NCBI GenBank assembly: GCA_016930085.1 | Contig: JAFGHO010000093.1 | Coordinates: 1-64,000 of the forward strand | Length of the DNA stretch: 64,000 nt | Origin: Spirochaetales bacterium | GTDB lineage: Bacteria > Spirochaetota > Spirochaetia > SZUA-6 > JAFGRV01 | Direction: 5' to 3' | Shown: positions 29,706 through 57,868 of the stretch, piece by piece | How positions within the stretch are numbered: the first letter of the stretch is position 1 | Layout of the letters: each line of letters opens with the position of its first letter | Notes under the pieces: model-generated | The model's input: the letters and a program-made list of their open reading frames with translations, nothing else | What the model was told of the DNA's origin: nothing | The model's database searches: none | Made by a program: the position numbers and the translations under genes

Positions 29706-29722
29706 AAATCGTTTTTTCCATC

Positions 29723-32700
29723 CTAATCCAATACAAGGAGTTTGGGTTTTGCTATACCGTAACCCTGGGCGTAATTGACGCCGATTTCCCTTATCTTTTC
29801 CAAAACGATATCGTTCTCGACGTATTCGGCGACGGTCTGCAGACCCATCATGTGACCGAGATTATTGATGGTCTTGACCAGAACAAAATCCCTTGGATCG
29901 TTCGCGATTTCTTTCACGAAAGAACCGTCTATTTTGAGATAATCGACCGGAAAATGTTTCAAATAACTGAACGAAGTCCAGCCGCTTCCGAAATCATCCA
30001 GCGAGAACGAACACCCCATTTCTTTCAATTCTTTCATGAATTCAGTCACTTTCGCAAGATTGAGAATCGCCGCGTTTTCGGTAATCTCGAAACAAATGCA
30101 AAAAGGGGGAACTTTATATTTTTCGAATTGCTCGATGACGAAACCGAGAAACTTGTCGTCGTTCAATGTCAGCCCCGAGAGATTGATACTGTATTTCATC
30201 ATCGAATCCTTTAGATCCGACCAGTGCTTTAATTTGTAGGAAGAAAAAAGCTTTGTGATAACCCAACGGTCGATCTGGGGCATGATGTTGTACCGTTCGG
30301 CCGAGGGGATGAACCGCTGCGGGAAGATGATATTTCCGTTTTCATCCTTCATGCGGATCAAAATCTCCGAATGATGCCGGTCTCCGTTGAGTTTTTTTCC
30401 GATCGGGAGAATCTGCTGATGATATAAACAAAACCGCCCCTCTTCGAGCGCCCTCGAAATCTGCGGTAAAAAAAACAATTCGCTGTGATATCTGACAAGA
30501 TCCTCGTCTTCATAACTATAGACATGGATCCTGTTCCCTCCGTTCTTTTTTGCAAGACAGCAGGCGACATTCGCCGAACTCATAATATCGGCAACGTCGT
30601 CGCTTGACATATTGATCGTGACAATCCCGATGCTGACCGTAATTTTAAAGGTTTCTCCCTTCCATATAAACGAAAAATCCTTGATGTTCCTTCTCAACGC
30701 GTCCGTAATGAGTTTAGCCCGGTGCAGCGGACATGAGTCCAGAATCAACCCGAATTGATCGCCGCCGAGTCTGGCAAGAATGTCCGAATGACGGATACCC
30801 TGTTTGAAAATAGCCGTTATCCGGCGCAACAATTCATCGCCGGCGATGTCGCCGAGTGAATCATTGATAATCCTGAAACTGTCGATATCAAGAAAACAAA
30901 AAATATGTTCGTTCTTCTTTTTTCTGGCATGCTCGAGCAATTCGGCCATCACTTCATTGAACTTGACGCGGTTATAGAGACCGGTCAGCCTGTCATGAGT
31001 CGTATGATAATCGATAAGGCGGGACATCTTGTGCGCTTCACTCACATTATGTATGACGATCACCACCCCGTAATTGCTGTTGTCCGTTCGTATCGGGGCG
31101 ATCGATTCCTTAATGGTAAACTCCCTCCCGTCCTTGCTTTTGAGCAGAATGGAACCCGATAGCTTCAACCCCCTGTCCTCGCTCAACACAATTTCCACTT
31201 TGTCCTTTAAAAAGTCATCCGACATGTTATACGTCACGTTAAGTACCTTTTTCAGCGGATTCCCCAATGCGTCTTCATGCTTCCATCCGGTAAGGACTTC
31301 AGCGATCGGATTCATGTAGGTGATGATCCCCTCGGTATTGGTGGTGATGACGCCGTCGGCGATCGACGCCAGGGTGACGAGCGCCAGTTCTTTCTGCTTA
31401 CTTAACGCCTCCTCTGTTTTTAGCCGTTCCTTCATCTCTATCTTGAGTTTTTTATTCGCGTCCCGCAGGGTTACCGTTTTTTCCTTGACCTTTGTTTCCA
31501 GTATATCGGCCTCCATACGGGCGGCTTTAAGCAACGCCGATCCCTTGAGCGTACTTCCGATTTCACTCGCCAGTGTTTCATAGATAATTCCGTCAATCGG
31601 TCCGGGTTCGAAGAGGACAAACCCGAGTTGTTCTTCCCGGAAATAAAGAGGCAATACAACGGCGGTATATCTCGTCCGGGCGTTTCTCATACCCCCCGGC
31701 ACAAGGTGAACGGAAGAAAACTTCCGCAGCCCCCTCTCGAAGACAATAGACGATTCATGCTGATAAGAAAACAAAAGTCTCGAAAAACCGCCGGGATTCG
31801 AATTGTTTTGATATACCGAAAGGAAACAGCTTCGAATCCCCAGATTGGGAAGCTGGGCTTCGAGATTTTCTTTCAGGTGGTCTTCATCGAATGTCGTTAT
31901 CAATTCCCTGTTGAGCTGATGGATGACCCTGTTCGCTTCATCGTTTTTCACCCGAAGGAAAACCTGATGGTTCTCCGACAAAAGGCCGAGAAAAACCAGT
32001 GTTTTCCTCCAGAGGGCTTCGAGAATGCATTCACGATCCCGTCCGTTCACACCTTTTTTAAATCGTGTAAAAAGCATTGAAAATACCGGATGCCAGGCCT
32101 GCACCCGGATGCCCCTCGCCGTCGAATCCGCGATTATTTTTTCGATTTCATCAAGGAAAGACTCTCCCGCGAACCCTTCCTTTTCACAGATTAAAGCGTC
32201 ATATATGCGTTCCGCCCATTCCCTCAGTACATTTTTTTCCTTCATACCGTTTAACGAGTTTTGCATTATATCGGCAAGCTCCATGATAAGTCTGCGGGGA
32301 GCGGCGTCCTCCATACTTTCATCATTGCCGGAAGGAAGGGTATAATATTTTTTTTCCAGGCTTCTGTAAATACGGCATCCACACGAAGGGCGAATCACAA
32401 GCCTGGTCGGGAACACAATACGATCGGGCACATCCCTGCCGGACAGTTTCTGGAGAATGATCGCCACCGCCTGCCTTCCCAATTCGTCATAAGGTTGCCG
32501 CACGGTCGTCAACGCCGGGACGACGCCGCACGCTTCATCGATATCGTCGAAACCCGCGACGGCAACATCATCCGGAATTTTTATATTCCTCTCCCCGAGT
32601 GCCTTCATGGCACTCAGGGCCATATAATCATTCGCCGCAACAAGCGCATCGAAAGCCGCCTTTCGTTCGTCCAGAAGACGCACCACCGCCTTTCGTCCCG

Positions 32701-33265
32701 CCGCACGGTCAAAATCCCCCTCGACCACAATATCGGGATCAAAAGGAATCCGGTACTCTTTCAGTACCTGTTTATAAAGCTGGAAACGCAGATCTGCATC
32801 GGAGTTGCCTCGCGGACCGGAAATAAACGCGATCCGCTTTCTCCCGTGAACCTCTATGATATGCGACAACAACTCTCGCATCCCTTTGGCATTGTCGACC
32901 AGAATGGAGGGAATATCGCGAAGGGGAACACCGATACTCACGATGGGTATATCGGGTAGCCCTTTATAGAAACTCCGGAGTTCCTCCAAACCGATATAAT
33001 TGCCGATCGATCCGGAAATTGCGATAAATCCGTCCACATTATCTTCGTTTACCAGATCATAGAGAATATTGCGTTGCGTATGAAACAATTCAGGGGAGTT
33101 GAGCGAACCGCCGGGAAAACAAATCAGATTCACGCCTTCTTCTTCACAGGCTTTTACCACCGCCGTCCAGATGTTTTCCTCATAATCCTCGAACAGATTA
33201 TCAAGAAGCATGCCAATGACGGGGGACCCCGGCACATCCCCTCGTTTTACTCCGGATACACCCAT
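29723..33265 (-). CDS. LacI-type sugar sensor - GAF-like - PAS - degenerate GGDEF - EAL protein (paralogue B)
   Basis: 1180 residues, ATG 33265 preceded by a G-rich GAGGAG...GGGGTGAT leader. Domain order is that of paralogue A: sugar-binding domain without HTH (15-300, with S-I-L-V-D-N, F-D-A-L-V-A-A-N-D-Y-M, A-G-F-D-D-I, A-L-T-T-V-R-Q-P, ending P-S-C-G-C), helical part, GAF-like part, coiled coil about 590-625, PAS about 626-745, GGDEF about 750-910 and EAL about 925-1180. GGDQF is at 834-838 and R-x-x-D at 825-828. EAL residues are complete, with the standard K-I-D-G. The charged coiled coil between GAF and PAS suggests a dimeric signal helix. It has its own candidate promoter (33308-33337). 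Sequence similarity to A and C along the full length shows that they arose by gene duplication. Confidence 0.92.
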   Translation of the reverse strand: MGVSGVKRGDVPGSPVIGMLLDNLFEDYEENIWTAVVKACEEEGVNLICFPGGSLNSPELFHTQRNILYDLVNEDNVDGFIAISGSIGNYIGLEELRSFYKGLPDIPIVSIGVPLRDIPSILVDNAKGMRELLSHIIEVHGRKRIAFISGPRGNSDADLRFQLYKQVLKEYRIPFDPDIVVEGDFDRAAGRKAVVRLLDERKAAFDALVAANDYMALSAMKALGERNIKIPDDVAVAGFDDIDEACGVVPALTTVRQPYDELGRQAVAIILQKLSGRDVPDRIVFPTRLVIRPSCGCRIYRSLEKKYYTLPSGNDESMEDAAPRRLIMELADIMQNSLNGMKEKNVLREWAERIYDALICEKEGFAGESFLDEIEKIIADSTARGIRVQAWHPVFSMLFTRFKKGVNGRDRECILEALWRKTLVFLGLLSENHQVFLRVKNDEANRVIHQLNRELITTFDEDHLKENLEAQLPNLGIRSCFLSVYQNNSNPGGFSRLLFSYQHESSIVFERGLRKFSSVHLVPGGMRNARTRYTAVVLPLYFREEQLGFVLFEPGPIDGIIYETLASEIGSTLKGSALLKAARMEADILETKVKEKTVTLRDANKKLKIEMKERLKTEEALSKQKELALVTLASIADGVITTNTEGIITYMNPIAEVLTGWKHEDALGNPLKKVLNVTYNMSDDFLKDKVEIVLSEDRGLKLSGSILLKSKDGREFTIKESIAPIRTDNSNYGVVIVIHNVSEAHKMSRLIDYHTTHDRLTGLYNRVKFNEVMAELLEHARKKKNEHIFCFLDIDSFRIINDSLGDIAGDELLRRITAIFKQGIRHSDILARLGGDQFGLILDSCPLHRAKLITDALRRNIKDFSFIWKGETFKITVSIGIVTINMSSDDVADIMSSANVACCLAKKNGGNRIHVYSYEDEDLVRYHSELFFLPQISRALEEGRFCLYHQQILPIGKKLNGDRHHSEILIRMKDENGNIIFPQRFIPSAERYNIMPQIDRWVITKLFSSYKLKHWSDLKDSMMKYSINLSGLTLNDDKFLGFVIEQFEKYKVPPFCICFEITENAAILNLAKVTEFMKELKEMGCSFSLDDFGSGWTSFSYLKHFPVDYLKIDGSFVKEIANDPRDFVLVKTINNLGHMMGLQTVAEYVENDIVLEKIREIGVNYAQGYGIAKPKLLVLD

Positions 33266-33605
33266 ATCACCCCCGGCTCCTCTTTTTTTATATTTCGATT
33301 CTCCTTAACTATAATCCACCACGATGTCTCTTTGCAAATTTATATCCCCACGGATGATGAATGTTTTCGGTGAAACGGCATCGACCGGCTCCACACCTCA
33401 TCATATACCGGCCAACTCCGTCGAAAAAGATATCATCCCGGTGACAAGAGACGGGAATAACGAAACATCATGAAAAATACGGCTGAACAATACGTACGTT
33501 TTAATCGGCCGTATAACAATTCGAATGCCGGACAGGCAAAGGTCGCGATATTGCCCTGCTATTACCGGTATACCGCCGTTAACGGCATTTCTCAACGGTT
33601 TAATT
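33266..33605. other. Intergenic region between paralogues C and B
   Basis: 340 bases. The right-hand part of the minus-strand leader of paralogue B contains a candidate promoter (33308-33337). A perfect 12-bp palindrome GCCGTTAACGGC lies at 33575-33586, about 20 bases after the stop of paralogue C; it has no T-run. No gene or RNA was recognised in the rest. Confidence 0.5.
33308..33337 (-). promoter_or_regulatory. Promoter of paralogues B and A
   Basis: Minus strand: TTGCAA, 18-base spacer, TATAGT, ending about 43 bases before ATG 33265. The same two hexamers occur before the diguanylate cyclase gene (38664-38691). Confidence 0.4.
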
Positions 33606-36600
33606 TCACAGCCTGTGCTGTCTGAACGGTTCCGGCTTTGATATAAAATAACCCTGAGCGTAATTGACGCCGATTTCCAGCAATTTCTCGAGTATATACT
33701 TGGTTTCGACATACTCGGCGATCGTCTCCAACCCCATAACATGGCCTATATGGTTAATCGTTTTCACGAGCTCATAATCGAGGGGGTTTTTATCGATTCC
33801 CTTGACGAAAGACCCGTCGATTTTCAGAAAATCCAGGGGAAGTTGTTTCAAATAGTTGAACGATGTCCAGCCCGCCCCGAAATCGTCAAGCGAGAAACAA
33901 CAGCCGATTCGTTTCATTTTCTTCATGAAATTTATTACGCGCGAAAGATTATAGATCGCCTGTCGTTCCGTAATTTCAAAACAGATCATAAAGGGAGGAA
34001 TGTCGTATAAATCGAACTGCTGAAAAACAAAATCGAGGAAACTCTCGTCATTGAGGGTCGCCCCGGATAAATTAATCGTATACTTCCCCCTTGTATGATA
34101 CACCGTTGCATTATAATCTATTTTATAGGAAGAAAAGAGTTTTCGGATTGCCCACCGGTCTATGATCGGCATGACATTGTATCGTTCGGCGGTCGAGATA
34201 AAGGTTTCGGGCGCGAGAATCTGACCGTTTTCGTCTATCATCCTTATGAGTACTTCGTAATGCTCTCCGTAGGTGATTGTCTTCCCGATCGGTTTTATTG
34301 TCTGCGTATAAAGGCAGAACCTGTCGTCCTCGAGCGCCTTTGTTATATGGGAAAGATAATAGATTTCACTCCTGTATTGAATCAGTTCCTTGTCCTCGGG
34401 TGTGTGAACATGTATCCTGTTGCCTCCTTTTTTCTTTGCCAGAGAACACGAGACATTCGCCTGGCTGAAGAGATTCGTCGTGCTGTCGCTGTATCTGACA
34501 ATGGGGACGAGTCCGACGCTTATCGTCACCGCGTAATCCCTCTCCTGCCAGGTAAACTTCTCTTTGCTCACCATTTTGCAGAGATCCTTCGCAATCCCTT
34601 CCGCGGTGGCGACGGGACAACAGGAGAATAATACGCCGAACTGATCCGCGCCGAGCCGGGCAAGGGCATCGGAACTGCGGATTCCTTTTTTGAGAATATT
34701 GCTGACATGGCGCAGGAGTTCGTCTCCCGCGACCGAGCCGCACGTTTCATTGACTATCTTGAAATTATCAATATCGATGAAACAGAAAATATGTTCCGTT
34801 TCTTCCTTTTTTGACAGCATAATATGCTCGTTAAGCAATTCCTCGAATTTTGATCTGTTATAAAATCCGGTAAGCGCGTCATGCGTGCTTTGATAGACGA
34901 TCTGCTGCGACATCAACTGTATTTCACTGACATTATGGATGGTGATGACGACACCGATGGTTTTATTTTCGCTATTCCGTATCGGTGATATGGTTTCCCG
35001 GATTGAAAACACCCTTCCGTCTTTACTCGTGAGAATGATCGAACCTGAGAGTTTGATACTCCGGTTTTCATTGAAAACGACCTCGGTCGGATCATTGATA
35101 ATACCGTCGCCGAGATTGTACGTGACATTCAACACCTTTTGAAGGGAAAGCCCCACGGCCTGACTGATTTCCCAGCCCGTCAGTTTTTCAGCCACAGGAT
35201 TCAGATAGGTAATGATCCCCTGATTGTCCGTGGTAATAACGCCATCCCCTATCGATTCAAGGGTGACAATGGCCCTCTCTTTTTCCAGACAAAGCTCCTG
35301 TTGCACCTTTACCTTTTCAGCGATCTCCTCTTTGAGCTGCCGGTTGGCATCATCGAGATCGTATATCCTGTTTTCGATCTCTTCCATCAGTTTCCCCGCC
35401 TGATTCTCCACCTTCTCGAACAGATGCGCCCCCTCGAGTGTCCCCGATATTTGCATGGACAGGCTTTGATACAGCATCCCGTTCATGGGGCCTATCGTAA
35501 AAAGAACAAACCCAAGATGAGTATTCTTGAAATAAAGCGGCAGTAAAATGAAATTGTTGTTTCCGTCGAACAGATCGATTGAATCAGGCGCCAGTTGATT
35601 CGAAACGAACCTGCCGCTTCCGTTCTCCTTGGAATCGAGCAATCTCTCTTGATTATATGCAAAAAACAGTTTTGCATAATGTGTATCGGTATGCTGCCTG
35701 TCATAGAGGGACAGGCAGCAACGCTCGATTCCCAGACCGGGAAGACACTGGTACAGGACACTTTTAAGGGTTTCAAAGCAAAAGGCCGTGGCAAGCTCCT
35801 GGTTTATATGCTGAAGTTCCACGGCTTCCTTTTCGCTGCACAATCTTAAGAAAGCATGACTCCTTCCGCCGAGTTCTCCGATAAGAACAAGCGATTCTTT
35901 CCAGAGTCGTTCAATATAGTGCCTGTTTTTTTCCGGAAAAGAGAATGAAGATGCTTTCTGAAAGAAAGAGATGACAACCGGATACCAGAAAAGGGTATCG
36001 ATTCCCATCTCCGATGATTCCAGGACGCTCGATTCGAGCATATGTAAAAATATCTTTTCACTTTGACCGTTCAGTTCCTTGAGAAGCGATGCGGAGAGTT
36101 GTTTCGCCCACTCGAAACCCTTGATCGCGTCCTGAAAACCGGTGAAATTTTTCTCCATTTCATCGACCAGAAGAGAAAGAAGTTCACCGTTTTCCACCAC
36201 ATATTTCTCGCTCAACCCGATCGATACAGGGGTAAAATCCGATAAAGAGGAAACCGATTTTGCGTTCCCGACACAATTGCACGAACGACGGACGACAAGT
36301 CTGGTCGTGAGTTCAGCTTTGACGGGCACATTCTCTCCCCTGAGAATTGAAATCATCATTTTCACCGCCTTGCACCCGAGGTTGAAAAGGGGCTGATGTA
36401 CCGTAGTCAGGGGAGGATTATTGAACCGGCCTTCTTCGATATCATCGAATCCCATGACCACGATATCCTGGGGAACGCGAATTCCCCTGTTTTTCATTTC
36501 TTTTATCGAACCGATCGCCATATAATCATTTGCCGCGATAAGGGCGTCAAACTCGACCTTTTTATCGTCGAGAAGCTCCGATACGGCCCGCTGTCCCGAA

Positions 36601-37145
36601 TATTTCTTGAAATCGCCGCAAGCGACGAGACGGGGATCAAAGGCAATCCCGAGATCCGTCAGTATTCTCTTGAACGCGCGGAAGCGCTCCTCGGCTTCAG
36701 GATTCTTGACTGGCCCCCGTATAAAGGCGATCCGCTTCCTGCCGTGCACCTTGACCAGGTGAGTGACACCTTCAAGCATTCCCGTAACATTATCGACCAG
36801 AATGCTCGTACACCCGTCGACAAGCATACCGATACTCACAATCGGAAGCGTATTATATTTCCTGTAAAAGCTGCTTACGCCTTCCGTCCCGACGTAGTTC
36901 CCCAGAGAACCCGAAATGCCGATAATTCCATGAAGACGTTCCGGACTTACCAGATCATAGATACTGTTTCGCTGGGACATGAAGCCGTTCGGATCACCCA
37001 ATGTACCGCCTGCATAACAGATTAATTGTATGTGTTCCTCTTTTGCGGCAGCAACGGCTCCGGTCCATACACCTTCCTCATATCTGCCCCAAAAATGTCC
37101 AAGAAATAGGCCTATTTTATAACTACCGCCGCCACTCACATTCAT
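33606..37145 (-). CDS. LacI-type sugar sensor - GAF-like - PAS - degenerate GGDEF - EAL protein (paralogue C)
   Basis: 1179 residues, ATG 37145 with AGGA and ACAGG upstream. It is the first gene of the tandem triplet in transcription order. The HTH-less sugar domain occupies about 8-292 (S-I-L-V-D-N, F-D-A-L-I-A-A-N-D-Y-M, M-G-F-D-D-I, P-P-L-T-T-V-H-Q-P, ending R-S-C-N-C). Helical, GAF-like, coiled-coil and PAS parts follow as in A and B. The GGDEF signature has decayed further to GADQF, while R-S-S-D is kept five residues before it. The EAL domain keeps E-V-L-I-R, I-N-L-S-G, E-I-T-E, L-D-D-F-G, K-I-D-G, A-E-Y-V-E and A-Q-G-Y. No export signal is present. The LacI fold binds sugars or nucleosides in known members; which ligand is bound here cannot be read from the sequence. 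Confidence 0.92.
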   Translation of the reverse strand: MNVSGGGSYKIGLFLGHFWGRYEEGVWTGAVAAAKEEHIQLICYAGGTLGDPNGFMSQRNSIYDLVSPERLHGIIGISGSLGNYVGTEGVSSFYRKYNTLPIVSIGMLVDGCTSILVDNVTGMLEGVTHLVKVHGRKRIAFIRGPVKNPEAEERFRAFKRILTDLGIAFDPRLVACGDFKKYSGQRAVSELLDDKKVEFDALIAANDYMAIGSIKEMKNRGIRVPQDIVVMGFDDIEEGRFNNPPLTTVHQPLFNLGCKAVKMMISILRGENVPVKAELTTRLVVRRSCNCVGNAKSVSSLSDFTPVSIGLSEKYVVENGELLSLLVDEMEKNFTGFQDAIKGFEWAKQLSASLLKELNGQSEKIFLHMLESSVLESSEMGIDTLFWYPVVISFFQKASSFSFPEKNRHYIERLWKESLVLIGELGGRSHAFLRLCSEKEAVELQHINQELATAFCFETLKSVLYQCLPGLGIERCCLSLYDRQHTDTHYAKLFFAYNQERLLDSKENGSGRFVSNQLAPDSIDLFDGNNNFILLPLYFKNTHLGFVLFTIGPMNGMLYQSLSMQISGTLEGAHLFEKVENQAGKLMEEIENRIYDLDDANRQLKEEIAEKVKVQQELCLEKERAIVTLESIGDGVITTDNQGIITYLNPVAEKLTGWEISQAVGLSLQKVLNVTYNLGDGIINDPTEVVFNENRSIKLSGSIILTSKDGRVFSIRETISPIRNSENKTIGVVITIHNVSEIQLMSQQIVYQSTHDALTGFYNRSKFEELLNEHIMLSKKEETEHIFCFIDIDNFKIVNETCGSVAGDELLRHVSNILKKGIRSSDALARLGADQFGVLFSCCPVATAEGIAKDLCKMVSKEKFTWQERDYAVTISVGLVPIVRYSDSTTNLFSQANVSCSLAKKKGGNRIHVHTPEDKELIQYRSEIYYLSHITKALEDDRFCLYTQTIKPIGKTITYGEHYEVLIRMIDENGQILAPETFISTAERYNVMPIIDRWAIRKLFSSYKIDYNATVYHTRGKYTINLSGATLNDESFLDFVFQQFDLYDIPPFMICFEITERQAIYNLSRVINFMKKMKRIGCCFSLDDFGAGWTSFNYLKQLPLDFLKIDGSFVKGIDKNPLDYELVKTINHIGHVMGLETIAEYVETKYILEKLLEIGVNYAQGYFISKPEPFRQHRL

Positions 37146-48493: not shown

Positions 48494-50179
48494 CTATTCG
48501 TCAAGCCGCCCGGTCTGCGTTTCGATAAATGCACAGAACGCCGAATACTTCTCGTAAAGCCTTTCGTATTGCCGGTTTCTGTCCGGATCGGGGACATATT
48601 CCTTCTCGAAACCACTTTCCATGGCCGCCTGGGCGGTTTCGATGTCCTTGTGAATCCCCGCCGCGACAGCGGCAAACATCGCCGCACCGAGAGCGCAGGC
48701 CTGCTCCGATGCCGCTACTTTTATCTTTTTGCCGAGCACGTCCGCGACAACCTGCATGATAAACGGCGATTTTTTTGCTACCCCGCCAAGGGCGATCACT
48801 TCCTTTATTTCTATTCCTTCTTCATGAAAACGGTCCACGATTTTTTTTGCACCGAAGGCGGTACTTTCAACGAGTGCCCGGAAAATTCGCGGAGCGTCGC
48901 TTCCGAGATTGAGTCCGGCAATCGCGCCTTTGACCAGCTGATTGGCATACGGCGTCCTCCTCCCGTTCATCCAGTCGATCGCGATAATCGATTCATCGAC
49001 AGGAAGTGCCGCCGCCTGCCGTGAAAGCTCCGGAATGATCCGGTCCTCCGCCTTCCCGGTTATGTTTTCCCTTTTCCTTTCATCCGTATCGGCCTTGCCG
49101 ATAACATGCAGAAGCGGCCATGCGAGAAGTTGTTGAAACCATGCATAAATGTCGCCGAAGGCGCTTTGTCCCGCTTCCATTCCCATCATACCGGGAACGA
49201 TTGAACCATCCACCTGGCCGCAGATTCCCCTGATGAGTTTGTCGCCGATATCGTCAAGCGGGGCGATCAACATGTCACAGGTCGAAGTTCCCATCACCTT
49301 GCTCAGCACATACGGTCTTATTCCGCCCCCGACAGCGCCCATGTGGGCGTCGAACGCACCGACACCCACGGCCACCTCGCGGCCGCCTATCCCGAGCCGC
49401 TTCGCCCACACAGGTGAAAGGCTTCCCGCTTTTTCACAACTCGTGTACGTATCCCGATACAACCTTCCCCTTATTTCGTCAAGAAGGGGATCGAGTTTTA
49501 CAAGAAAGTCCCGATGGGGTAGACCGTGAAAGGATTCGTGCCACATTGCCTTATGCCCGGCCGCGCACCTGCTGCGTTTGACCGACGCCGCGTCGCTGCA
49601 CCCGGTCAATAACGCGGGTATCCAGTCGCAATGTTCGATCCAGGAACAGGCGGCTTCCCTGACGGACGAATCGGTTCTGATGACATGCAGCAATTTCGCC
49701 CAGAACCATTCGGAGGAATAGACACCCCCCGAATATTTCGTGTAATCGGTTCCCCCCCATGTTTTTGCCAGATGATTGATCTCATCCGCCTCTTTCACGG
49801 CGGAATGGTCCTTCCAGAGCACGAACATCGCGTTCGGATTGTCGTTGAATTCGGACCTCAGGGCAAGCGGCATTCCCCGTCTGTCGACGGCGCAGGGGGT
49901 GGAACCGGTCGTATCCACGGAAATACCCGCGACGTTTCTTGCCGCTTCTTTCGGGGCTTTTTTCAGACACCCGGTGACAACCTCCTCCAATCCCTCAATA
50001 TAATCCAGGGGATGCTGCCTGAACCGGTTGTTGACGGGATCACAATAGAGGCCCGATTTCCACAGCCGGTAATGATAAATATGCGTTGAGATTTCACTCC
50101 CGTCCGATGCGTCGACGAGCAGGGCTCGGACGGAATCCGTTCCAAAATCGATTCCGATAACATATCCTTTTTCTTTCAT
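48494..50179 (-). CDS. araB: Ribulokinase
   Basis: 561 residues, similar to E. coli AraB over its full length: G-I-D-F-G-T-D-S-V-R-A-L-L-V-D at the N-terminus, F-V-L-W-K-D-H, Y-S-S-E-W-F-W-A-K, A-F-D-A-H-M-G-A-V-G, G-Q-V-D-G-S-(I)-V-P-G, D-W-(M)-N-G-R-R-T-P and G-G-(V)-A-(K)-K. It phosphorylates L-ribulose (and in E. coli also other ketopentoses) with ATP to the 5-phosphate, the second step of L-arabinose use. araA and araD are not nearby. A LacI-type palindrome lies about 110 bases upstream. It is the last gene of a run of minus-strand genes that includes transketolase subunits, which could process the resulting pentose phosphate. Its stop is 22 bases from that of the convergent flavoprotein gene. 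Confidence 0.95.
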   Translation of the reverse strand: MKEKGYVIGIDFGTDSVRALLVDASDGSEISTHIYHYRLWKSGLYCDPVNNRFRQHPLDYIEGLEEVVTGCLKKAPKEAARNVAGISVDTTGSTPCAVDRRGMPLALRSEFNDNPNAMFVLWKDHSAVKEADEINHLAKTWGGTDYTKYSGGVYSSEWFWAKLLHVIRTDSSVREAACSWIEHCDWIPALLTGCSDAASVKRSRCAAGHKAMWHESFHGLPHRDFLVKLDPLLDEIRGRLYRDTYTSCEKAGSLSPVWAKRLGIGGREVAVGVGAFDAHMGAVGGGIRPYVLSKVMGTSTCDMLIAPLDDIGDKLIRGICGQVDGSIVPGMMGMEAGQSAFGDIYAWFQQLLAWPLLHVIGKADTDERKRENITGKAEDRIIPELSRQAAALPVDESIIAIDWMNGRRTPYANQLVKGAIAGLNLGSDAPRIFRALVESTAFGAKKIVDRFHEEGIEIKEVIALGGVAKKSPFIMQVVADVLGKKIKVAASEQACALGAAMFAAVAAGIHKDIETAQAAMESGFEKEYVPDPDRNRQYERLYEKYSAFCAFIETQTGRLDE

Positions 50180-50358: not shown

Positions 50359-51513
50359 TCAGCGGTCTTTCAACTGCTGCCGTATGAACTCGCGGACATC
50401 CTCCGTCTCGAATCCGGAGCCGTCTTCATGCGAGGCGTCCCTGATCGGCTTGTCGAACTGCTCTTCGGTAATGGAAAAATGCTCCATAATGAGCCCGGCA
50501 TCGACCCCGGATAATTCCGATACCTGTCTGAAGGTATCCCGACCCTTGATATCGTCCGGATTGAACGCGCCTTGTTCGCCGGTCGTTTCTTCCAGTGTTT
50601 TCAACGTCCATTCGAAACCGCCGGTTATCGTCGCCGCCCCGATAACGGCCGCGAAGATAAGAAAGGAGGCCGTTGTAACGGTAAAGGGAGAGACTCTGCT
50701 TTTTTTGGGCCCTTCGATAAACAGTGTATTTTCGACCGGACAAACGTTCACGCATTCCGAACAGGCGATGCATTCGGAAGAGTCGACTGTAACCGTCTCC
50801 TCGACCTTGATATTGACCGGACAGGCCTTGTTGCACGCGTGGCAATGAATACAGGTCGTGTCGTTTCTCCTGATCCGGAAAAGACCGATCCTGTTGATCA
50901 GTCCCAGGAAGGCCCCCATGGGACAAAGGTATTTGCAGAAAAAACGGTCCACGAAGAAGGAACCGGCCAGGCTAACCGCCAGCACTGCGAATCCTATTGA
51001 AAACTCGGTGAAAAGATCGGAAGAGAAGAGGTGGTGGTAGGTTGCCCACGGATCGTATGGCCGTATTGCGAGTTCCCCCAGGATTGCCGATAGAACGACA
51101 AATACGACCAGAACAATATACTTGATGTACCGCGCCGGTTTGTCGAGTACGGCCGGAACTTCGAGACGTTTTTTGAAGATCTTTTTACCAGCCCTCCCGA
51201 ACAACTCCTGCAATGTACCGAGGGGGCAGAGGCTGCCGCAGAACGACCGGCGGAAGAGGACCGCCACAATGAGGGTGGCGAAAAGCAGGATAAAACTGCT
51301 CCATGCGATCTTGCTCAACATCGCGCCCGTGGTAATGAGGGTGATGGCCGATTCGATCCCCCCGAAAGGACAGAATGCGTCCACACCCGCCGGGGTCCAC
51401 CCTTTCCCGTACTGATGCAGTAAACCGAGGGTTGTCGATGTCGCCAGCACGAGCAATAAAACGACGATGCGGACGACGCGGCGTCCTTTTTGCAGTTGTC
51501 TGATTTTTTTCAT
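50359..51513 (-). CDS. NapH/CcoG-like membrane polyferredoxin
   Basis: 384 residues, ATG 51513 eight bases after AAGGAG. Residues 1-210 contain about five membrane segments with two C-x-x-x-C-P motifs (F-C-G-S-L-C-P-L-G and F-C-K-Y-L-C-P-M-G). Residues 215-275 hold two 4Fe-4S clusters (C-I-H-C-H-A-C-N-K-A-C-P and C-I-A-C-S-E-C-V-N-V-C-P). This is the architecture of NapH/NosR-like electron-transfer proteins. A third hydrophobic stretch precedes a soluble C-terminal tail of about 80 acidic residues of unknown role. The first membrane segment is followed by F-C-P-F-G-G, another possible redox or metal site. Why it lies between araB and the RuBisCO-like operon is unclear. Confidence 0.88.
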   Translation of the reverse strand: MKKIRQLQKGRRVVRIVVLLLVLATSTTLGLLHQYGKGWTPAGVDAFCPFGGIESAITLITTGAMLSKIAWSSFILLFATLIVAVLFRRSFCGSLCPLGTLQELFGRAGKKIFKKRLEVPAVLDKPARYIKYIVLVVFVVLSAILGELAIRPYDPWATYHHLFSSDLFTEFSIGFAVLAVSLAGSFFVDRFFCKYLCPMGAFLGLINRIGLFRIRRNDTTCIHCHACNKACPVNIKVEETVTVDSSECIACSECVNVCPVENTLFIEGPKKSRVSPFTVTTASFLIFAAVIGAATITGGFEWTLKTLEETTGEQGAFNPDDIKGRDTFRQVSELSGVDAGLIMEHFSITEEQFDKPIRDASHEDGSGFETEDVREFIRQQLKDR

Positions 51514-51647: not shown

Positions 51648-52775
51648 TTAAACCGACATGACGATTTCCCTGAACATCCGGCATGTGGAGACGATGTCGT
51701 TTCCATGGGCGAAAAGGTCACCGCCTATGAGAAACGCCACATCCGTTCCGTAAAAATCTTTCATCATATCAAGCGACGAAAGTCCCATACCGCCCCCCGG
51801 TACCGGAAAGATCTTCCTGATTCCCGTCATATCTCTCACGCAGCCGTCCCTGACACCCCCGCATGAGGCCTTGCTGAATGTGAACCTTCCCCCGAAATTC
51901 GGAAAAATAGCCGCGTCCGAGCCCGCGAGACGGGGAAGTTCTCCAAAAAGAACCGCCGGAGAAATCCCCGACATGCCGTTCGTGACAAAACTTCCTTGAA
52001 ATGCCGGGTGGTAGATGAGGGGAAGGTCCAGATCATCGCTTGAAGCGATCCGTTTCACGGCGTCGTAGCCCGCGAGCCCGGGCGAGATCAGAAAAGCACC
52101 GGCCCCCACCCTTTTCGCGAATACGGCCCGCTCGAATAGTTCGTCACATCCGGAGGTGATATTCGGCGCGTAGATTGCAGCACCGCCCGTACGGGCATTT
52201 GCCTTATGTATCGCTTCCGCACACCTGGAAGCGCGTTCCTTGAAAGGGGCGAACACCTGATTCGAGAGGCCGTGATCGTCCTTGATGATATCGATGCCCC
52301 CGTATGCGAACCGGTAGGCGCGATGCGCGAGTTCGCGCGCCGGCAGCCCGAGTGGTTTGATGGCGGTGCAGAGAAGCGGGCGATCGTACGCGCCGCAGCG
52401 TTTCCGCAGACCGTCTATCCCGAAACGGGGTCCCTTGAAAAACCCAAGCATATGCGGCGACAGGTCGATCCGTTCGACCCGTATACCGGGTTTCAGGCTT
52501 GAATTACCGAACAGGACATTCAAAAATTGCGGGAAATCGGGTCCCGCTGTTTCATCGAGAAAACTGATAACGGCATCGTAACACCGGCGCCCGGCTTTCC
52601 GTAATGATTCGACCCTTCCGATCACCTCCCGTCCGATGTTTTCTTTCCGCACATATTGGAGGGGAAACTCGATTGTCTGCTCGATACATAAAGCCTCCGC
52701 CATCACCTCGGCTTCACCTTCACGGCAAAAAAGGCGGTAGGTAACGGTAAATCTATCTTTTACCGGTTCCTTCAT
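51648..52775 (-). CDS. RuBisCO-like protein (form IV)
   Basis: 375 residues, shorter than true RuBisCO large subunits (~470). The alpha/beta barrel carries T-A-I-K-P (Lys140, equivalent to catalytic Lys175), G-G-I-D-I-I-K-D-D-H with Lys165 at the position carbamylated in RuBisCO (Lys201) and both Asp residues, but His168 replaces the metal-ligand Glu204. Y-H-P-A-F-Q-G (His256) matches the His294 region. Loop 6 has no lysine corresponding to Lys334, and phosphate-site glycines remain (P-G-G-G-M-G, I-G-G-D). CO2 fixation is therefore unlikely; it should enolise or isomerise a sugar phosphate. Its ATG overlaps the stop of the transketolase C-subunit by one base, so the proteins are made together. 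Known form IV functions include methionine salvage and isoapionate breakdown; neither is supported by neighbours here except the transketolase. Confidence 0.92.
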   Translation of the reverse strand: MKEPVKDRFTVTYRLFCREGEAEVMAEALCIEQTIEFPLQYVRKENIGREVIGRVESLRKAGRRCYDAVISFLDETAGPDFPQFLNVLFGNSSLKPGIRVERIDLSPHMLGFFKGPRFGIDGLRKRCGAYDRPLLCTAIKPLGLPARELAHRAYRFAYGGIDIIKDDHGLSNQVFAPFKERASRCAEAIHKANARTGGAAIYAPNITSGCDELFERAVFAKRVGAGAFLISPGLAGYDAVKRIASSDDLDLPLIYHPAFQGSFVTNGMSGISPAVLFGELPRLAGSDAAIFPNFGGRFTFSKASCGGVRDGCVRDMTGIRKIFPVPGGGMGLSSLDMMKDFYGTDVAFLIGGDLFAHGNDIVSTCRMFREIVMSV

Positions 52776-53782
52776 TACAGCGCCTCGGAAGGCGAACCCT
52801 TGGGTGTATCGGGGAGCACACCGGCCGAGATTTCCGATTCAGGTATGTCAAGGGGTCTGCCGACAAGGGTTTCCACGGCCCGTATGACGGCGGACGCGTC
52901 CAGCCCGTGTTCCTTCATGAGATACGCCCGCCCCCCGCCGTGTGAAAAGGTATCGCGGATTCCGCACGCGAGAAGCCTTTTAACGGTACCGCATTCCACC
53001 ATACGCTCTGCGACCAGGGTAGCGAGGCCCCCGTTCGTCAGGTGATTCTCGACGGTCACCACCCCGTACGACGCACCGGCAATCGCTTCGGTCACTATCG
53101 GACTTTTACAGGGCTTGAAGGTCGACATATGGATGTGGGCGGCCGCCACACCCCGCTTTTCGAGCGCGGGGATCACCCGCATCACCTCTTCCGTGCAGAT
53201 TCCGGAAGAAAAAACGGCCACATCAGCCCCCTTCCGCAAAACCCGAGGTTTGTCGCAGACAAAAGGTTTATCGGCATCGAACAGCCGGGGAATATCCCCC
53301 CTGATCATCCGCACGTACACGGGCCCGTTTACCGCGATGGCGGCATCGAGAACGCTTTCGACCTCGGTCGCGTCTCCGCACTCAAAGACGGTCATGTTGG
53401 GCAGAAGCCGCATCACGGCGATATCCTCGATCGCCTGGTGGGTCGCGCCGCCTGGCGTGGTGATGCCGGGAAGAAAGCCGAAAAGCTTCACCGGCAGATT
53501 CGGGTAGGCGACGGACATTGCGATCTGGTCGCAGGCGCGGCGGTAGAGGAACACGGCAAAGGTATGGACAAAGGGGATATAACCCTCCCGCGCGAGCCCC
53601 CCGGCGACGCTTACCATGTTCTGCTCCGCGATCCCGGCCGAAATAAACCGGTCCGGATAGGCGTCCCTGAACAGATCCACTTCCGTCGAGGAGGTGAGGT
53701 CGGCCGAGAGGACGAGTACTTCGGGTTTGTCTTTGGCCCATTCGACAAGATGACGGGCGTGAACACGGCTGCATCGTTCCAT
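52775..53782 (-). CDS. Transketolase C-terminal subunit
   Basis: 335 residues. It corresponds to the pyrimidine-binding and C-terminal domains of transketolase; the catalytic glutamate is Glu53 in A-G-I-A-E-Q-N-M. T-P-G-G-A-T-H-Q-A-I-E-D-I-A is the conserved substrate-side loop. Together with the N-terminal subunit encoded 11 bases upstream it would form a thiamine-diphosphate enzyme that transfers two-carbon ketol units between sugar phosphates. Split transketolases occur in many bacteria and archaea, and some are dedicated to special catabolic pathways rather than the pentose phosphate cycle. The one-base overlap with the RuBisCO-like gene suggests such a dedicated role here. Confidence 0.93.
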   Translation of the reverse strand: MERCSRVHARHLVEWAKDKPEVLVLSADLTSSTEVDLFRDAYPDRFISAGIAEQNMVSVAGGLAREGYIPFVHTFAVFLYRRACDQIAMSVAYPNLPVKLFGFLPGITTPGGATHQAIEDIAVMRLLPNMTVFECGDATEVESVLDAAIAVNGPVYVRMIRGDIPRLFDADKPFVCDKPRVLRKGADVAVFSSGICTEEVMRVIPALEKRGVAAAHIHMSTFKPCKSPIVTEAIAGASYGVVTVENHLTNGGLATLVAERMVECGTVKRLLACGIRDTFSHGGGRAYLMKEHGLDASAVIRAVETLVGRPLDIPESEISAGVLPDTPKGSPSEAL

Positions 53783-53793
53783 GGCACCTTCCT

Positions 53794-54738
53794 TTAACCG
53801 GATTCCCGTTCGATTTCCGTTTCATACGATTGAAGCGCATCGGCGAGGGACTGTCTCTCTTCATCCGTATGAAACCGGATATAGTGGAACTTCGGTTCCC
53901 GTTGTCTGAGTACCTCGATGCCCTGCCACGGTACTGTCTGCGCCAGTACGACGAGGGGACGTTCCCCTTTCCATTCGGAAGCGGCGGCGGCAAGGCGGAC
54001 GACGTCATGGCCGGGACAGGAGACGACTTCCGCCCCAAACGCCTCGAGCCGCCTGTCCAGGGGATCGATTCCCATAACCGAATCGATCTTCCCGTCGCAC
54101 TGGTAACTGTTCACATCGACATACATACCGATGTTCGTCAAACCGTGGTACGCGGCGAATTCGACCGCCTCCCAGGTTTGTCCGATCTGGAACTCGCCGT
54201 CGGACATAAAAACCCAGACCTTGCCGGACTCCCCTTTCTTTTTCCTGGCAAGCGCGATGCCCGCGGCCTGGCTGATGCCCTGCCCGAGCGAACCGGTCAT
54301 CACCTCCATGCCGGGCGAATGCTCGGCGCCGATCATCTCGACTGACGATCCGTCTTTATTGAAATCACGAAGCCCCGCTTCGTGCATTCTTCCCGTTTCG
54401 ATCAACGCCGCATAGAGGGCGAGTGCGTAATGGGCGGGAGAAAGGATGAAGCGGTCGTGTTCGGCGTCCCGCGGGCCGTTGTAAAGGGCGCCTGTCGTGT
54501 AATCCCGATTATTCGGCCCGGGAACCCCGCGAAACGCTCCTGGAAGCAGCGGGGAACCGGGTGCGGGGAGACGCATGACCTTTGTGTACATGACGGCGAG
54601 GATTTCCGCCGACGAACACGCCTGGCTCAAATACCCGCCGCCCGCTTCGAGCGTATGAAAAAGCACCCGGTAACGGATTCCCCTCGCAACACATTTTGCA
54701 ATACCGATCCATGACGCTTCGTTCCCGACGGTTCGCAT
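53794..54738 (-). CDS. Transketolase N-terminal subunit
   Basis: 314 residues, ATG 54738 after GAAGGAG. It is the thiamine-diphosphate pyrophosphate-binding half of transketolase: S-P-A-H-Y-A-L-A-L-Y around 100-109, T-G-S-L-G-Q-G-I-S-Q-A-A-G around 148-160, and the S-D-G-E (179-182) plus downstream asparagine motif (D-V-N-S-Y-Q-C-D-G) that binds Mg and ThDP. The usual first residue of G-D-G-E is Ser here, as in some relatives. It is the first gene of the operon with the C-terminal subunit and the RuBisCO-like protein. It is divergent from the WD40-caspase gene; the 238-base gap between them should contain both promoters, but I found no convincing one for this direction. Confidence 0.93.
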   Translation of the reverse strand: MRTVGNEASWIGIAKCVARGIRYRVLFHTLEAGGGYLSQACSSAEILAVMYTKVMRLPAPGSPLLPGAFRGVPGPNNRDYTTGALYNGPRDAEHDRFILSPAHYALALYAALIETGRMHEAGLRDFNKDGSSVEMIGAEHSPGMEVMTGSLGQGISQAAGIALARKKKGESGKVWVFMSDGEFQIGQTWEAVEFAAYHGLTNIGMYVDVNSYQCDGKIDSVMGIDPLDRRLEAFGAEVVSCPGHDVVRLAAAASEWKGERPLVVLAQTVPWQGIEVLRQREPKFHYIRFHTDEERQSLADALQSYETEIERESG

Positions 54739-54976
54739 GACTTCTCCTTCTGTTGGCCCGATCTCATCGAAAGGCTTTTCACCCCGTTAACCGCAACGTG
54801 CGGCGACAACAGGCTTCACATGCCCGACCGATATATCATTGTTACTACATGGTTCGCCGCCGGTCAAATCCTTTTTCAAGGCAGTACCCGCACTCCGAAT
54901 CCTTTTCATTTCACGGGATACCTTCTCGATTTTTCCCATTCTTGACCCGTTTTTTTATGTATGATACCTTTTTATC

Positions 54977-57868
54977 ATGAAACCTGCAATCGCCGCCTTC
55001 CTGATTCTTTGTATCGCCTCTTTCACCGCTTCGTCCGGGGATACATCCACACCCGGGCTGCGGATAAACACGGAAATGCACACATCGACCGTTCACAAGA
55101 TCGATCGCGACGCGGCGGGGAAATACCTTCTCAGCTGTTCTTCGGATAAAACCGCCCGCCTGTGGGATGCGGCCGGCGGAGCCTTGATCCGTGTTTTCAG
55201 ACCCCCGATCGCACCGGGAAACGAAGGAAAATTGTATGCGTGCGCGCTTTCGCCCGACGGGTCGACCGCCGTGACCGGCGGCTGGACCGGAAAGAATGTG
55301 GCGGGTGAATACTGCCTGTATGTATTCAATACGGCGACGGGTGAGATGACGGGGAGGATCGGCGGGCTCGATCATGTCGTCTTTGATTGCGAGTTTTCAC
55401 CGGACGGCGCATGGCTTTCCGTCTGTCTCGGCGGGGGTAAGGGTATCGCCGTCGTTTCCGCCGAAACATGGAAAATATCCCGTATCCTCGAAAATTACGG
55501 TGAAGCGGGTTACAACGCTTGTTTTTCAAAAGACATGAGGCTGGCTTCGGTATGCGACGACGGAACGATAAGGCTTTACGACGATTCGTATCGGTTGATC
55601 GCCCGGCGCGAAGGGGCGGGCAGGGAACCGTATGGCATCGACTTCTCACCCGACGGCGCCCGGTGCGCGATCGGCTACGTCGGCTTGAAAAAACTCGAAG
55701 TCCTTTCATCGGAATCCCTCGCCCCGCTGTACGAACCGCCGGCCGGCGGCCTGTCGCAGGGTTCCGATCTCTCCTGCGTCTGCTGGTCCGCTGACGGAAC
55801 CTTCCTTGCCGCCGGAGGCAGACACCGGACCGACGAAGGGCGGTACTGGCGATACCCCGTCCGTATGTACAAAAACGGGGGCAAAGGGGCATACGAGGAT
55901 TATCCCGTATGCAGGAACACGATTTTCGACCTCAAACCATTACCCGGTAATTCCGTCGCGTACTGCAGCGGGTTTCCCGAAATCGGGAGAATCGGTTGCG
56001 ACGGCAAGCCGTATTTCCACCGGGAAGCCGAGATCCCGGATTTCGGCAACTATCAATCCCGGTACCTGAGGTTTTCACCCGACGCCTCGACGGTGTCATT
56101 CAAACCGCAAGGCCCGGCCACATTTACCTTTTCGATCGGGATGAGAGAACTGAGACGTGAAACTTCATCTTTTCCCCTCGCGGTAACGGACAGGGAAGGT
56201 CTCGCCGTGACGCACTGGCTCGACGACGTCTCGCCGTGCATCAACGGGAAAAAATGCGGGTTCCTGGTTAAAAACGAACGATCGAGAAGCGCCGCCGTAT
56301 CGAAGGACGGCAAACGGTGCGTTCTGGGTACGAGTCAACATCTTTATTGCGCCGATGAAAAAGGAACTTTACTCTGGAAAGCCCCCCTTCCCGATCACGG
56401 ATGGGCGGTCAATATCGCTGACGAAAAAAAAATATGTGTCGTCGCCTGCGGCAACGGCACCCTTCAATGGTACGGTCTCGACAGCGGGAACCTCCTGCTT
56501 ACCCTTTTCGTTCACGGCGACGGCAAACGATGGATCCTCTTCAGTCCGTCCGGCTATTACGATTGTTCGGCCGGCGCCCAGGATCTTATCGGATGGCATG
56601 TCGAAAACGGTATCGACCGCGCGGCGGACTTTTTCCCGGCAGGCCGGTTTTCGTCCCGTTTCTACCGGCCCGATGTCATCCCTTTCCTTCTCGAGGAAAA
56701 GAACGAAACGGAATCCCTGAAAGCGGCGGACGGTATCGCCGTCGAAGCGGCGGACGGTATCGCCGGCGGTAAGACGGCGAAAAAAGAAATATTCGAAATC
56801 CTCCCCCCCGTTGTCAGTATCGTCAAACCCGCCCCGTTTACGGAAACCGCCGAGAAATCGGTTTCCCTCGTCGTCTCGGTCCGTACACCGTCAAACCAGC
56901 CGGTAACGCAACTGAAAATATTGCGGGGGGGCAGACCTTATGAAACAAAAAACCTGAAAAATTTCATCGCGCCCGAAGGAAAGGAAATCCCGCTTTCCTG
57001 CGAACTCGTACCGGGACCGAACGATATCACGGTCTGCGCGCGAAACGCTTTCGGATGGAGTGAACCGGTTTGTATCAGCATCACCAAAACCGGTACATCC
57101 GGTCATGATTCCCTGATGCCGAAACTATATCTGCTTTCCGTTGGTGTTTCGGCGTATGAAGACCCCCAGCTGCGTCTTGGATTCGCGGCAAAGGACGCGG
57201 CGGACTTCTCAAAGGCGATGGCCGTACAGAAAAAACGGCTCTACGGCGAAGTGACCGTCACCCTGCTTACCGATGAAAAGGCGACGAAAGACAATATTCT
57301 GGACGGCCTCGACTGGATTCAGAAGGAAACAACCTCCCGCGACATCGCGATGATTTTCTTTGCCGGCCACGGCATCAATGACAATACGGGAAACCTCTAT
57401 TATCTCCCCGTGGAGGCGGATCTTCAAAAGATAAAACGGACCTGCCTCCCCTCGAACGATATCGCCACAACCATACAATCGATAGCCGGCAAGGTGGTCT
57501 ACTTTATGGACACATGTCATTCGGGGCTCATCAGTGTCACCGGACGGAGGGGCATTCTCCACCTCGACACGAACAAGGAGGTCATGGAACTCATTCACGC
57601 GGAAAACGGCGCCGTTGTTTTCTGTTCCTCATCAGGCAACCAGTACTCTTTGGAAAACGAAGGATGGGGGAACGGCGCGTTCACCCTCGCCCTGGTGGAA
57701 GGAATAAGCGGAAAAGCGGATTATATCGGTGAAGGAACCATTACCATCAATCAACTCGATCTCTACATCTCCGAGCGCGTCAAAAAGCTGACCGGGGGAA
57801 GGCAGACACCGGTCACCGCAAAGCCGGATACGATCAGGGATTTTCCCATAGCACTGGCCGGGAAATAA
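54977..57868 (+). CDS. Exported WD40-repeat / caspase-like (C14) protease
   Basis: 963 residues. A signal peptide (1-20, ending T-A-S-S-G-D) targets it out of the cytosol. About 40-560 are WD40-type repeats forming one or two propellers (L-L-S-C-S-S-D-K-T-A-R-L-W-D is a textbook blade; others are more diverged). About 610-710 look like an Ig-like strand domain. Residues 716-960 are a caspase-fold peptidase (Peptidase_C14) with His798 in F-F-A-G-H-G and Cys847 in M-D-T-C-H-S-G, the His-Cys dyad of metacaspase-like enzymes. Substrate and activation are unknown; WD40-caspase fusions occur in large-genome bacteria. A 24-base tandem duplication lies in the linker (56721-56764). No ribosome binding site precedes the ATG; a small inverted repeat (ATGATA/TATCAT, 54961-54978) covers it. 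nadD-like gene follows after 12 bases. Confidence 0.92.
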   Translation: MKPAIAAFLILCIASFTASSGDTSTPGLRINTEMHTSTVHKIDRDAAGKYLLSCSSDKTARLWDAAGGALIRVFRPPIAPGNEGKLYACALSPDGSTAVTGGWTGKNVAGEYCLYVFNTATGEMTGRIGGLDHVVFDCEFSPDGAWLSVCLGGGKGIAVVSAETWKISRILENYGEAGYNACFSKDMRLASVCDDGTIRLYDDSYRLIARREGAGREPYGIDFSPDGARCAIGYVGLKKLEVLSSESLAPLYEPPAGGLSQGSDLSCVCWSADGTFLAAGGRHRTDEGRYWRYPVRMYKNGGKGAYEDYPVCRNTIFDLKPLPGNSVAYCSGFPEIGRIGCDGKPYFHREAEIPDFGNYQSRYLRFSPDASTVSFKPQGPATFTFSIGMRELRRETSSFPLAVTDREGLAVTHWLDDVSPCINGKKCGFLVKNERSRSAAVSKDGKRCVLGTSQHLYCADEKGTLLWKAPLPDHGWAVNIADEKKICVVACGNGTLQWYGLDSGNLLLTLFVHGDGKRWILFSPSGYYDCSAGAQDLIGWHVENGIDRAADFFPAGRFSSRFYRPDVIPFLLEEKNETESLKAADGIAVEAADGIAGGKTAKKEIFEILPPVVSIVKPAPFTETAEKSVSLVVSVRTPSNQPVTQLKILRGGRPYETKNLKNFIAPEGKEIPLSCELVPGPNDITVCARNAFGWSEPVCISITKTGTSGHDSLMPKLYLLSVGVSAYEDPQLRLGFAAKDAADFSKAMAVQKKRLYGEVTVTLLTDEKATKDNILDGLDWIQKETTSRDIAMIFFAGHGINDNTGNLYYLPVEADLQKIKRTCLPSNDIATTIQSIAGKVVYFMDTCHSGLISVTGRRGILHLDTNKEVMELIHAENGAVVFCSSSGNQYSLENEGWGNGAFTLALVEGISGKADYIGEGTITINQLDLYISERVKKLTGGRQTPVTAKPDTIRDFPIALAGK

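Follow-up and report, generated by a model that had tools for sequence, protein, structure and literature searches.

A conserved split transketolase and RuBisCO-like protein operon in a Spirochaetales bacterium suggests oxygen-free recycling of a sulfur by-product of S-adenosylmethionine

Here we describe a three-gene operon, encoding the two subunits of a split transketolase (TktN and TktC, together TktNC) and a RuBisCO-like protein (RLP), in a 64,000-nucleotide stretch of a Spirochaetales bacterium genome (assembly GCA_016930085.1, contig JAFGHO010000093.1, positions 1 to 64,000; hereafter, the window). The distribution of this operon suggests a new, oxygen-free recycling of methylthioadenosine (MTA)—the sulfur by-product of S-adenosylmethionine (SAM)—in which a known glutathione-dependent step is replaced. 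We think it reasonably probable that the operon forms the lower part of an oxygen-independent, RLP-dependent MTA route, with TktNC cleaving 1-methylthioxylulose-5-phosphate (MTXu-5P), and the same route probably also serves the 5-deoxy analogue of MTA. The observations behind this reading are gene order, the clade of the RLP, the presence and absence of partner genes, the exchange of TktNC for a cupin, the linkage to riboswitches in relatives, and a set of active-site replacements.

A tightly packed and widespread operon

The three genes were confirmed on the minus strand by checking their open reading frame coordinates: tktN (53794-54738; 314 amino acids) encodes the thiamine-diphosphate-binding N-terminal subunit (Pfam Transketolase_N), tktC (52775-53782; 335 amino acids) the pyrimidine-binding and C-terminal subunit (Transket_pyr and Transketolase_C), and the third gene (51648-52775; 375 amino acids) the RLP (RuBisCO_large). 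Eleven bases separate tktN from tktC, and tktC overlaps the RLP gene by one base (TAATG); both the exact coordinates and the domains agree with a preliminary description of this DNA, which had read the trio as a single, tightly packed unit.

RLPs of this kind were found in 8 of 395 genomes of the host's class (the host counted), each from a different genus. The other seven are 41-52% identical to the window RLP, and the order tktN-tktC-RLP holds in every contig long enough to show it. Scanning GTDB genomes yielded 80 named loci, distributed over Chloroflexota, Bacillota, Nitrospirota, Planctomycetota, Myxococcales, purple sulfur bacteria, Spirochaetes, and others, to which a plasmid collection added loci from rhizobia, Ponticoccus, and Vibrio; no relative was found among viral contigs. 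Among the 79 comparable RLP loci, defined as those with at least 2.2 kb of upstream sequence, tktN and tktC both lie upstream on the same strand in 62, and TktC only in two. Sources of the conserved arrangement include Clostridia, Chloroflexota, Nitrospirota, Spirochaetes, and rhizobia, and the genes often overlap by 1 or 4 bases. Distances among RLPs and among TktC proteins are also correlated (Mantel r = 0.80; 0/2000 permutations). The pairing exceeds chance and is present in many genomes besides the host's, and the earlier proposal of a shared pathway for RLP and transketolase is supported.

The RLP belongs to a methylthioribulose-1-phosphate isomerase-like clade

Judged from its sequence, the window RLP is a form IV protein in the broad sense, as first described, and a member of the DeepYkr clade, whose members resemble 5-methylthioribulose-1-phosphate (MTRu-1P) isomerases; this placement departs from the two roles named at the outset, namely the enolase of methionine salvage and the catabolism of branched-sugar acids. 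The activity that defines the DeepYkr type is conversion of MTRu-1P to 1-methylthioxylulose-5-phosphate and MTRu-5P. The best sequence match of the window RLP among solved structures is 3qfw, an RLP from Rhodopseudomonas palustris (242 bits) that we take to be RLP1, although its record does not state so, and 3qfw ranks 1-2 in a fold search with the predicted structure (predicted local distance difference test score, pLDDT, 86). In the tree, the window RLP joins 3qfw and a cupin-adjacent RLP from Terrarubrum in a clade of 18 rows (holding 3qfw and L121) with support of 100/100, and this clade stands apart from MtnW, the 2,3-diketo-5-methylthiopentyl-1-phosphate (DK-MTP-1P) enolase, and from the Photo-type and OiaX-like RLPs. 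Residues K165-H168 (52272..52283, minus strand) form a KDDH motif at the place where RuBisCO, MtnW, and OiaX have KDDE; KDDH is found in 91 of 93 clade members, and KDDE in all 12 outgroup RLPs examined. A diverged tktN-tktC-RLP cluster without KDDH, on a Vibrio nigripulchritudo plasmid (L120), carries FGGY kinases, a sugar transporter, and dehydrogenases, with no mtnA, and perhaps performs the same chemistry on another sugar. The DeepYkr RLPs of Rhodospirillum rubrum and R. palustris convert MTRu-1P to MTXu-5P, from which a cupin then makes 1-deoxyxylulose-5-phosphate, freeing the methylthio group (PMC5893883).

These comparisons bear on two other explanations of the locus. That the RLP is a variant DK-MTP-1P enolase, beside which the transketolase pair is merely a co-inherited pentose-phosphate enzyme, strikes us as highly improbable: enolase models do give the top raw score in NCBIfam, yet at 205 of 409 and 164 of 513.6 bits they fall far under their curated cut-offs, and the tree puts the RLP outside the enolase clade (100/100). 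Acireductone dioxygenase (PF03079), an enzyme of the universal methionine salvage pathway that was detected in control genomes, is moreover missing from 12 of 12 genomes including the host, which already has a full-length transketolase. Split transketolases act on apulose-4-phosphate, and a ribulokinase gene (48494-50179) lies two genes downstream of the RLP gene, so that an operon for branched-sugar (apiose or apionate) or pentose catabolism with this kinase as partner could be imagined. We hold this to be very unlikely, as the window RLP reaches just 69 of the 700 bits of the OiaX model's curated cut-off, the OiaX-like RLP of Rufibacter belongs to a different clade, and no close ribulokinase homologue occurs in the related trio clusters examined, where distant FGGY kinases stand near few RLPs only. 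No apiose genes were recognised in the clusters that were read, though no search was aimed at them. Model scores and tree therefore uphold the early doubts about both established roles: the protein is not a DK-MTP-1P enolase, and it is not OiaX.

MTA salvage genes in the host and in related operons

A family-by-family search of the host genome recovered mtnA (C16), two copies of mtnP (C53 and C75), all over their cut-offs, and metY, encoding O-acetylhomoserine sulfhydrylase, with mtnA unlinked to the trio. No match to mtnK or to the MTXu-5P cupin was found in the same genome. Since mtnP is present and mtnK absent, MTA most likely enters the host's pathway by phosphorolysis. Matches to mtnA occur in all eight genomes of the class that have this RLP, versus 200 of the 395 sampled. 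The statement that methionine salvage lacks any partner is thus true of the window only: in addition to the genes elsewhere in the host genome, mtnK and mtnA share an operon with the trio in many relatives.

Clostridium ljungdahlii and Clostridium drakei carry a tight run of sugar ATP-binding cassette (ABC) transporter-mtnK-mtnA-tktN-tktC-RLP, headed in both by a SAM riboswitch, and in a metagenome-assembled genome (MAG) of the Sporomusaceae a SAM riboswitch lies directly 5' of tktN. SAM (S-box) riboswitches map to L059:1565-1674, L056:1434-1544, L049:7851-7952, and L046:11443-11543; they head the trio operon in the two clostridia and the Sporomusaceae MAG, and in L046 one stands before metX, immediately following the RLP gene. 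Rfam gave no riboswitch match in the window and none in the Spirochaete loci. The block mtnK-mtnA-tktN-tktC-RLP, with a divergent ABC transporter, is also found on plasmids of Ensifer, Agrobacterium, Pararhizobium, Rhizobium, and Mariluticola, and a Ponticoccus cluster combines the trio with a nucleoside-type transporter, a purine nucleoside phosphorylase, an amidohydrolase, and mtnA. Separately, a DhnA/LsrF-like class I aldolase was seen near the trio or near mtnA/mtnK in four loci (L016, L019, L052, and L075). An MDR-family alcohol dehydrogenase adjoins it in L016 and L052, and in L019 one belongs to the same cluster. This aldolase is a possible alternative enzyme of the dihydroxyacetone phosphate (DHAP) shunt discussed below.

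An altered split transketolase

Among solved structures, TktN and TktC come nearest to chains of 6yak and 6yaj, respectively, which are the N and C subunits of a split transketolase. According to the alignment, TktNC has kept the residues that bind thiamine diphosphate (ThDP) and magnesium (GDG and Asn), the catalytic glutamate, and the equivalents of S385 and R520 (Escherichia coli TktA numbering, used throughout), which are phosphate contacts in the E. coli enzyme. Other positions are consistently replaced. The GGYLSQ motif of TktN (residues 34-39; 54622..54639, minus strand) places Tyr36 where TktA has H26, and this position is Tyr in 66 of 66 aligned family members, compared with His in all canonical references, a residue near-universal in transketolases and DXS. 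The H100 position is Met or Leu in 67 of 67. In TktC, the FGFLPGITTPGGATHQ motif (53435..53482, minus strand) has lost the equivalents of H461 and D469 and kept H473: across the aligned family, no His occurs at the first position, the second is Gly in 71 of 71, and the third is His in 71 of 71. Given that the host also encodes a full-length transketolase and a separate DXS, TktNC is not its housekeeping transketolase; nor does it qualify as a DXS, since TktC scores 158 of 466 bits (below the curated cut-off) and TktNC has Tyr and Gly in place of the His and Asp that DXS has at the H26 and D469 positions. TktNC is thus a split-type member of the transketolase superfamily without the marks of a canonical transketolase or of a DXS.

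In transketolases, the residues replaced here contact the hydroxyls of donor and acceptor, and His461 also contacts phosphate. A donor with a 5-phosphate but without a C1 hydroxyl, such as MTXu-5P or 1-deoxyxylulose-5-phosphate, would fit TktNC, as far as an alignment, rather than the structure of a complex, can indicate. The same residues speak to whether TktNC is instead a true C2 transferase that takes a C2 unit (methylthio or deoxy) from the RLP product and passes it to an aldose phosphate, forming an unusual ketose for some other use. The fold and the full set of ThDP residues are those of a transketolase, and a transketolase-made 7-deoxysedoheptulose, derived from 5-deoxyribose, is known in a cyanobacterium (PMC8102628). 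Without counterparts of D469 and H461, however, TktNC would bind ordinary acceptors less strongly, and no conserved neighbour of the trio would use such a ketose; we consider this alternative improbable.

TktNC and a cupin replace one another

RLPs of this clade that lack adjacent tktNC genes often have an R. rubrum-type cupin gene instead, arranged as RLP-cupin-metY in Propionispora and metY-metA-cupin-RLP in Pelotomaculum, and present as well in a Syntrophomonadaceae MAG and others; no tktNC locus has a cupin beside the RLP. Cupin-linked RLPs are nested among the tktNC-linked RLPs in the tree, requiring at least five changes. Across 30 whole genomes, which were selected by us and are not a random sample, the TktC family was found in 19, the cupin in seven, both in none, and neither in four (Fisher p = 1.6e-4). 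For two RLPs without an adjacent partner, one is encoded at another place in the genome: L099 has a cupin, and L074 a TktN-TktC fusion that shows the family motifs. This exchange is most simply read as cupin and TktNC sharing one substrate, the product of the RLP. In two Chloroflexota genomes (L034 and L043), which have neither Tkt nor cupin, an FGGY kinase and a sugar ABC transporter lie directly upstream of the RLP gene.

The exchange also helps to separate a sulfur pathway from the salvage of carbon in 5-deoxyribose, derived from the 5'-deoxyadenosine of radical SAM enzymes. In the latter, the RLP would make 1-deoxyxylulose-5-phosphate from 5-deoxyribulose-1-phosphate, TktNC would split this into glyceraldehyde-3-phosphate and a C2 unit (acetaldehyde, or transferred), and sulfur would be incidental. 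In the DHAP shunt, 5-deoxyribose is likewise handled by MtnK and MtnA (PMC10986504), anaerobes produce much 5'-deoxyadenosine, many clusters contain sugar or nucleoside ABC transporters, and the lost C1-hydroxyl contacts of TktNC would suit a 1-deoxy ketose too. On the other hand, the swap with a methylthio-specific cupin, metY and metA beside the cupin-linked RLPs, and the SAM riboswitches that accompany the tktNC operon all point to sulfur, and both substrates may serve. Salvage of 5-deoxyribose carbon as the sole function is, in our estimation, unlikely.

A proposed thio-ketolase route

In the oxygen-independent MTA route that we favour, MtnP would convert MTA to methylthioribose-1-phosphate and MtnA would convert this to MTRu-1P. 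A 1,3-isomerisation by the RLP would then yield MTXu-5P, in which the phosphate is at C5 and the 3,4-configuration is that needed by transketolase; through this carbonyl shift the product, unlike MTRu-1P, would be a xylulose-type ketose 5-phosphate. TktNC would cut MTXu-5P at C2-C3, giving glyceraldehyde-3-phosphate and a thiamine-bound methylthio-C2 unit, for which the most attractive fate would be beta-elimination of methanethiol to leave acetyl-thiamine, freed as acetate or acetyl phosphate. O-acetylhomoserine sulfhydrylase would rebuild methionine from the methanethiol. Such a release of the methylthio group would make TktNC the functional equal of the cupin and so account for their mutual exclusion. 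The RLP reaction is taken from the literature on homologues; the use of MTXu-5P by TktNC and all product chemistry are what we infer. We advance only tentatively, at rather less than even confidence, that TktNC would be a 'thio-ketolase' (MTXu-5P to glyceraldehyde-3-phosphate, methanethiol, and acetate or acetyl phosphate) forming with the RLP an oxygen- and glutathione-independent salvage across many anaerobic phyla. The C2 unit may instead be released as methylthioacetaldehyde or passed to an acceptor; the route may also take 5-deoxyribose, either as a second substrate or as its principal one. A new ketose-phosphate pathway had been suggested for this locus; a new step is indeed plausible, placed inside methionine salvage rather than in the catabolism of pentoses, apiose, or tetronates.

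Several observations weigh against this reading. Beyond our choice of the 30 genomes, the p value for the exclusion between RLP partners rises to 0.05 once the genomes chosen for their adjacent cupin are removed; only four phylogenetically independent pairs lie on well-supported branches, and a sign test on them is not significant; four of the 30 genomes have neither partner (MAGs may be incomplete); and for two of the seven cupins the match is weak (38-44%). G304, a relative among the Spirochaetes, encodes a good homologue of the cupin, and its contig ends before any tkt genes would be reached. No salvage gene adjoins the trio in the window, and the window RLP is only ~38% identical to 3qfw. 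Some clusters carry aldolases that would handle MTRu-1P or 5-deoxyribulose-1-phosphate directly; Ald2-like genes were seen in clusters of relatives and class II aldolases in some trio clusters. Finally, given the FGGY kinases of the V. nigripulchritudo cluster and its lack of mtnA, members of the family may differ in substrate.

Anaerobic, oxygen-free recycling of MTA is only partly known, and the trio provides a defined, widespread candidate gene set with a testable reaction, present in tractable organisms such as C. ljungdahlii, Heliobacterium, and rhizobia. We found no paper connecting an RLP and a transketolase in MTA metabolism in the open literature, and mention in subscription papers is possible. 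If the proposal is true, it would add a new partner function for the RuBisCO superfamily and a new transketolase reaction, with consequences for how the turnover of methanethiol and sulfur is modelled in anoxic settings.

Genomic surroundings of the operon

The region upstream of the operon (54739..54976, minus strand) is common to a divergent caspase-like gene (54977-57868, plus strand), which encodes WD40 repeats and a caspase domain (Peptidase_C14, EACC1-associated type); a Shine-Dalgarno-like AGAAGGAG lies immediately 5' of tktN. A promoter scan of this region returned one weak sigma-70-like site, a count no higher than in shuffled sequences. Directly downstream of the RLP gene is a NapH/NosR-type membrane ferredoxin protein (50359-51513, minus strand) that is not conserved with the trio. 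This gene, the ribulokinase, and the caspase-like gene were rejected as operon partners because no close homologue of any of them recurs beside the trio in relatives. Farther away (26151-37145, minus strand), three tandem, similar proteins of ~1180 amino acids are apparent fusions of a LacI-type sensor with PAS, GGDEF, and EAL domains, as read from sequence only.

Comparison with known systems

The split transketolase of Carboxydothermus hydrogenoformans (6yaj/6yak) consists of two chains, like TktNC, and supplies its nearest solved structures, but it keeps the canonical His and Asp that are replaced in TktNC. Bacillus MtnW has the RuBisCO-like fold and the link to methionine salvage in common with the window RLP; it differs in belonging to a separate clade, in having KDDE rather than KDDH, and in needing oxygen-dependent downstream enzymes. 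In phosphoketolase and sulfoacetaldehyde acetyltransferase, a ThDP enamine expels a beta leaving group to give acetyl-ThDP, phosphoketolase eliminating water. The chemistry proposed for TktNC would be analogous, although TktNC is not a member of these families by sequence and the leaving group would be methanethiol. The DHAP shunt (MtnK or MtnP, MtnA, and the aldolase Ald2; PMC10986504) shares its substrates and first steps with the proposed route; there, a single aldolase cuts MTRu-1P to DHAP, whereas an isomerase and a transketolase would do the work here. The MTA-isoprenoid shunt of R. rubrum and R. palustris (MtnP, MtnA, DeepYkr RLP, and the cupin MTXu-5P methylsulfurylase; PMC5893883) has the same RLP clade and the same upstream genes and is likewise oxygen-independent. 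In the Spirochaetales host, which is without the cupin, the step after the RLP apparently falls to the split transketolase and would give glyceraldehyde-3-phosphate, not 1-deoxyxylulose-5-phosphate.

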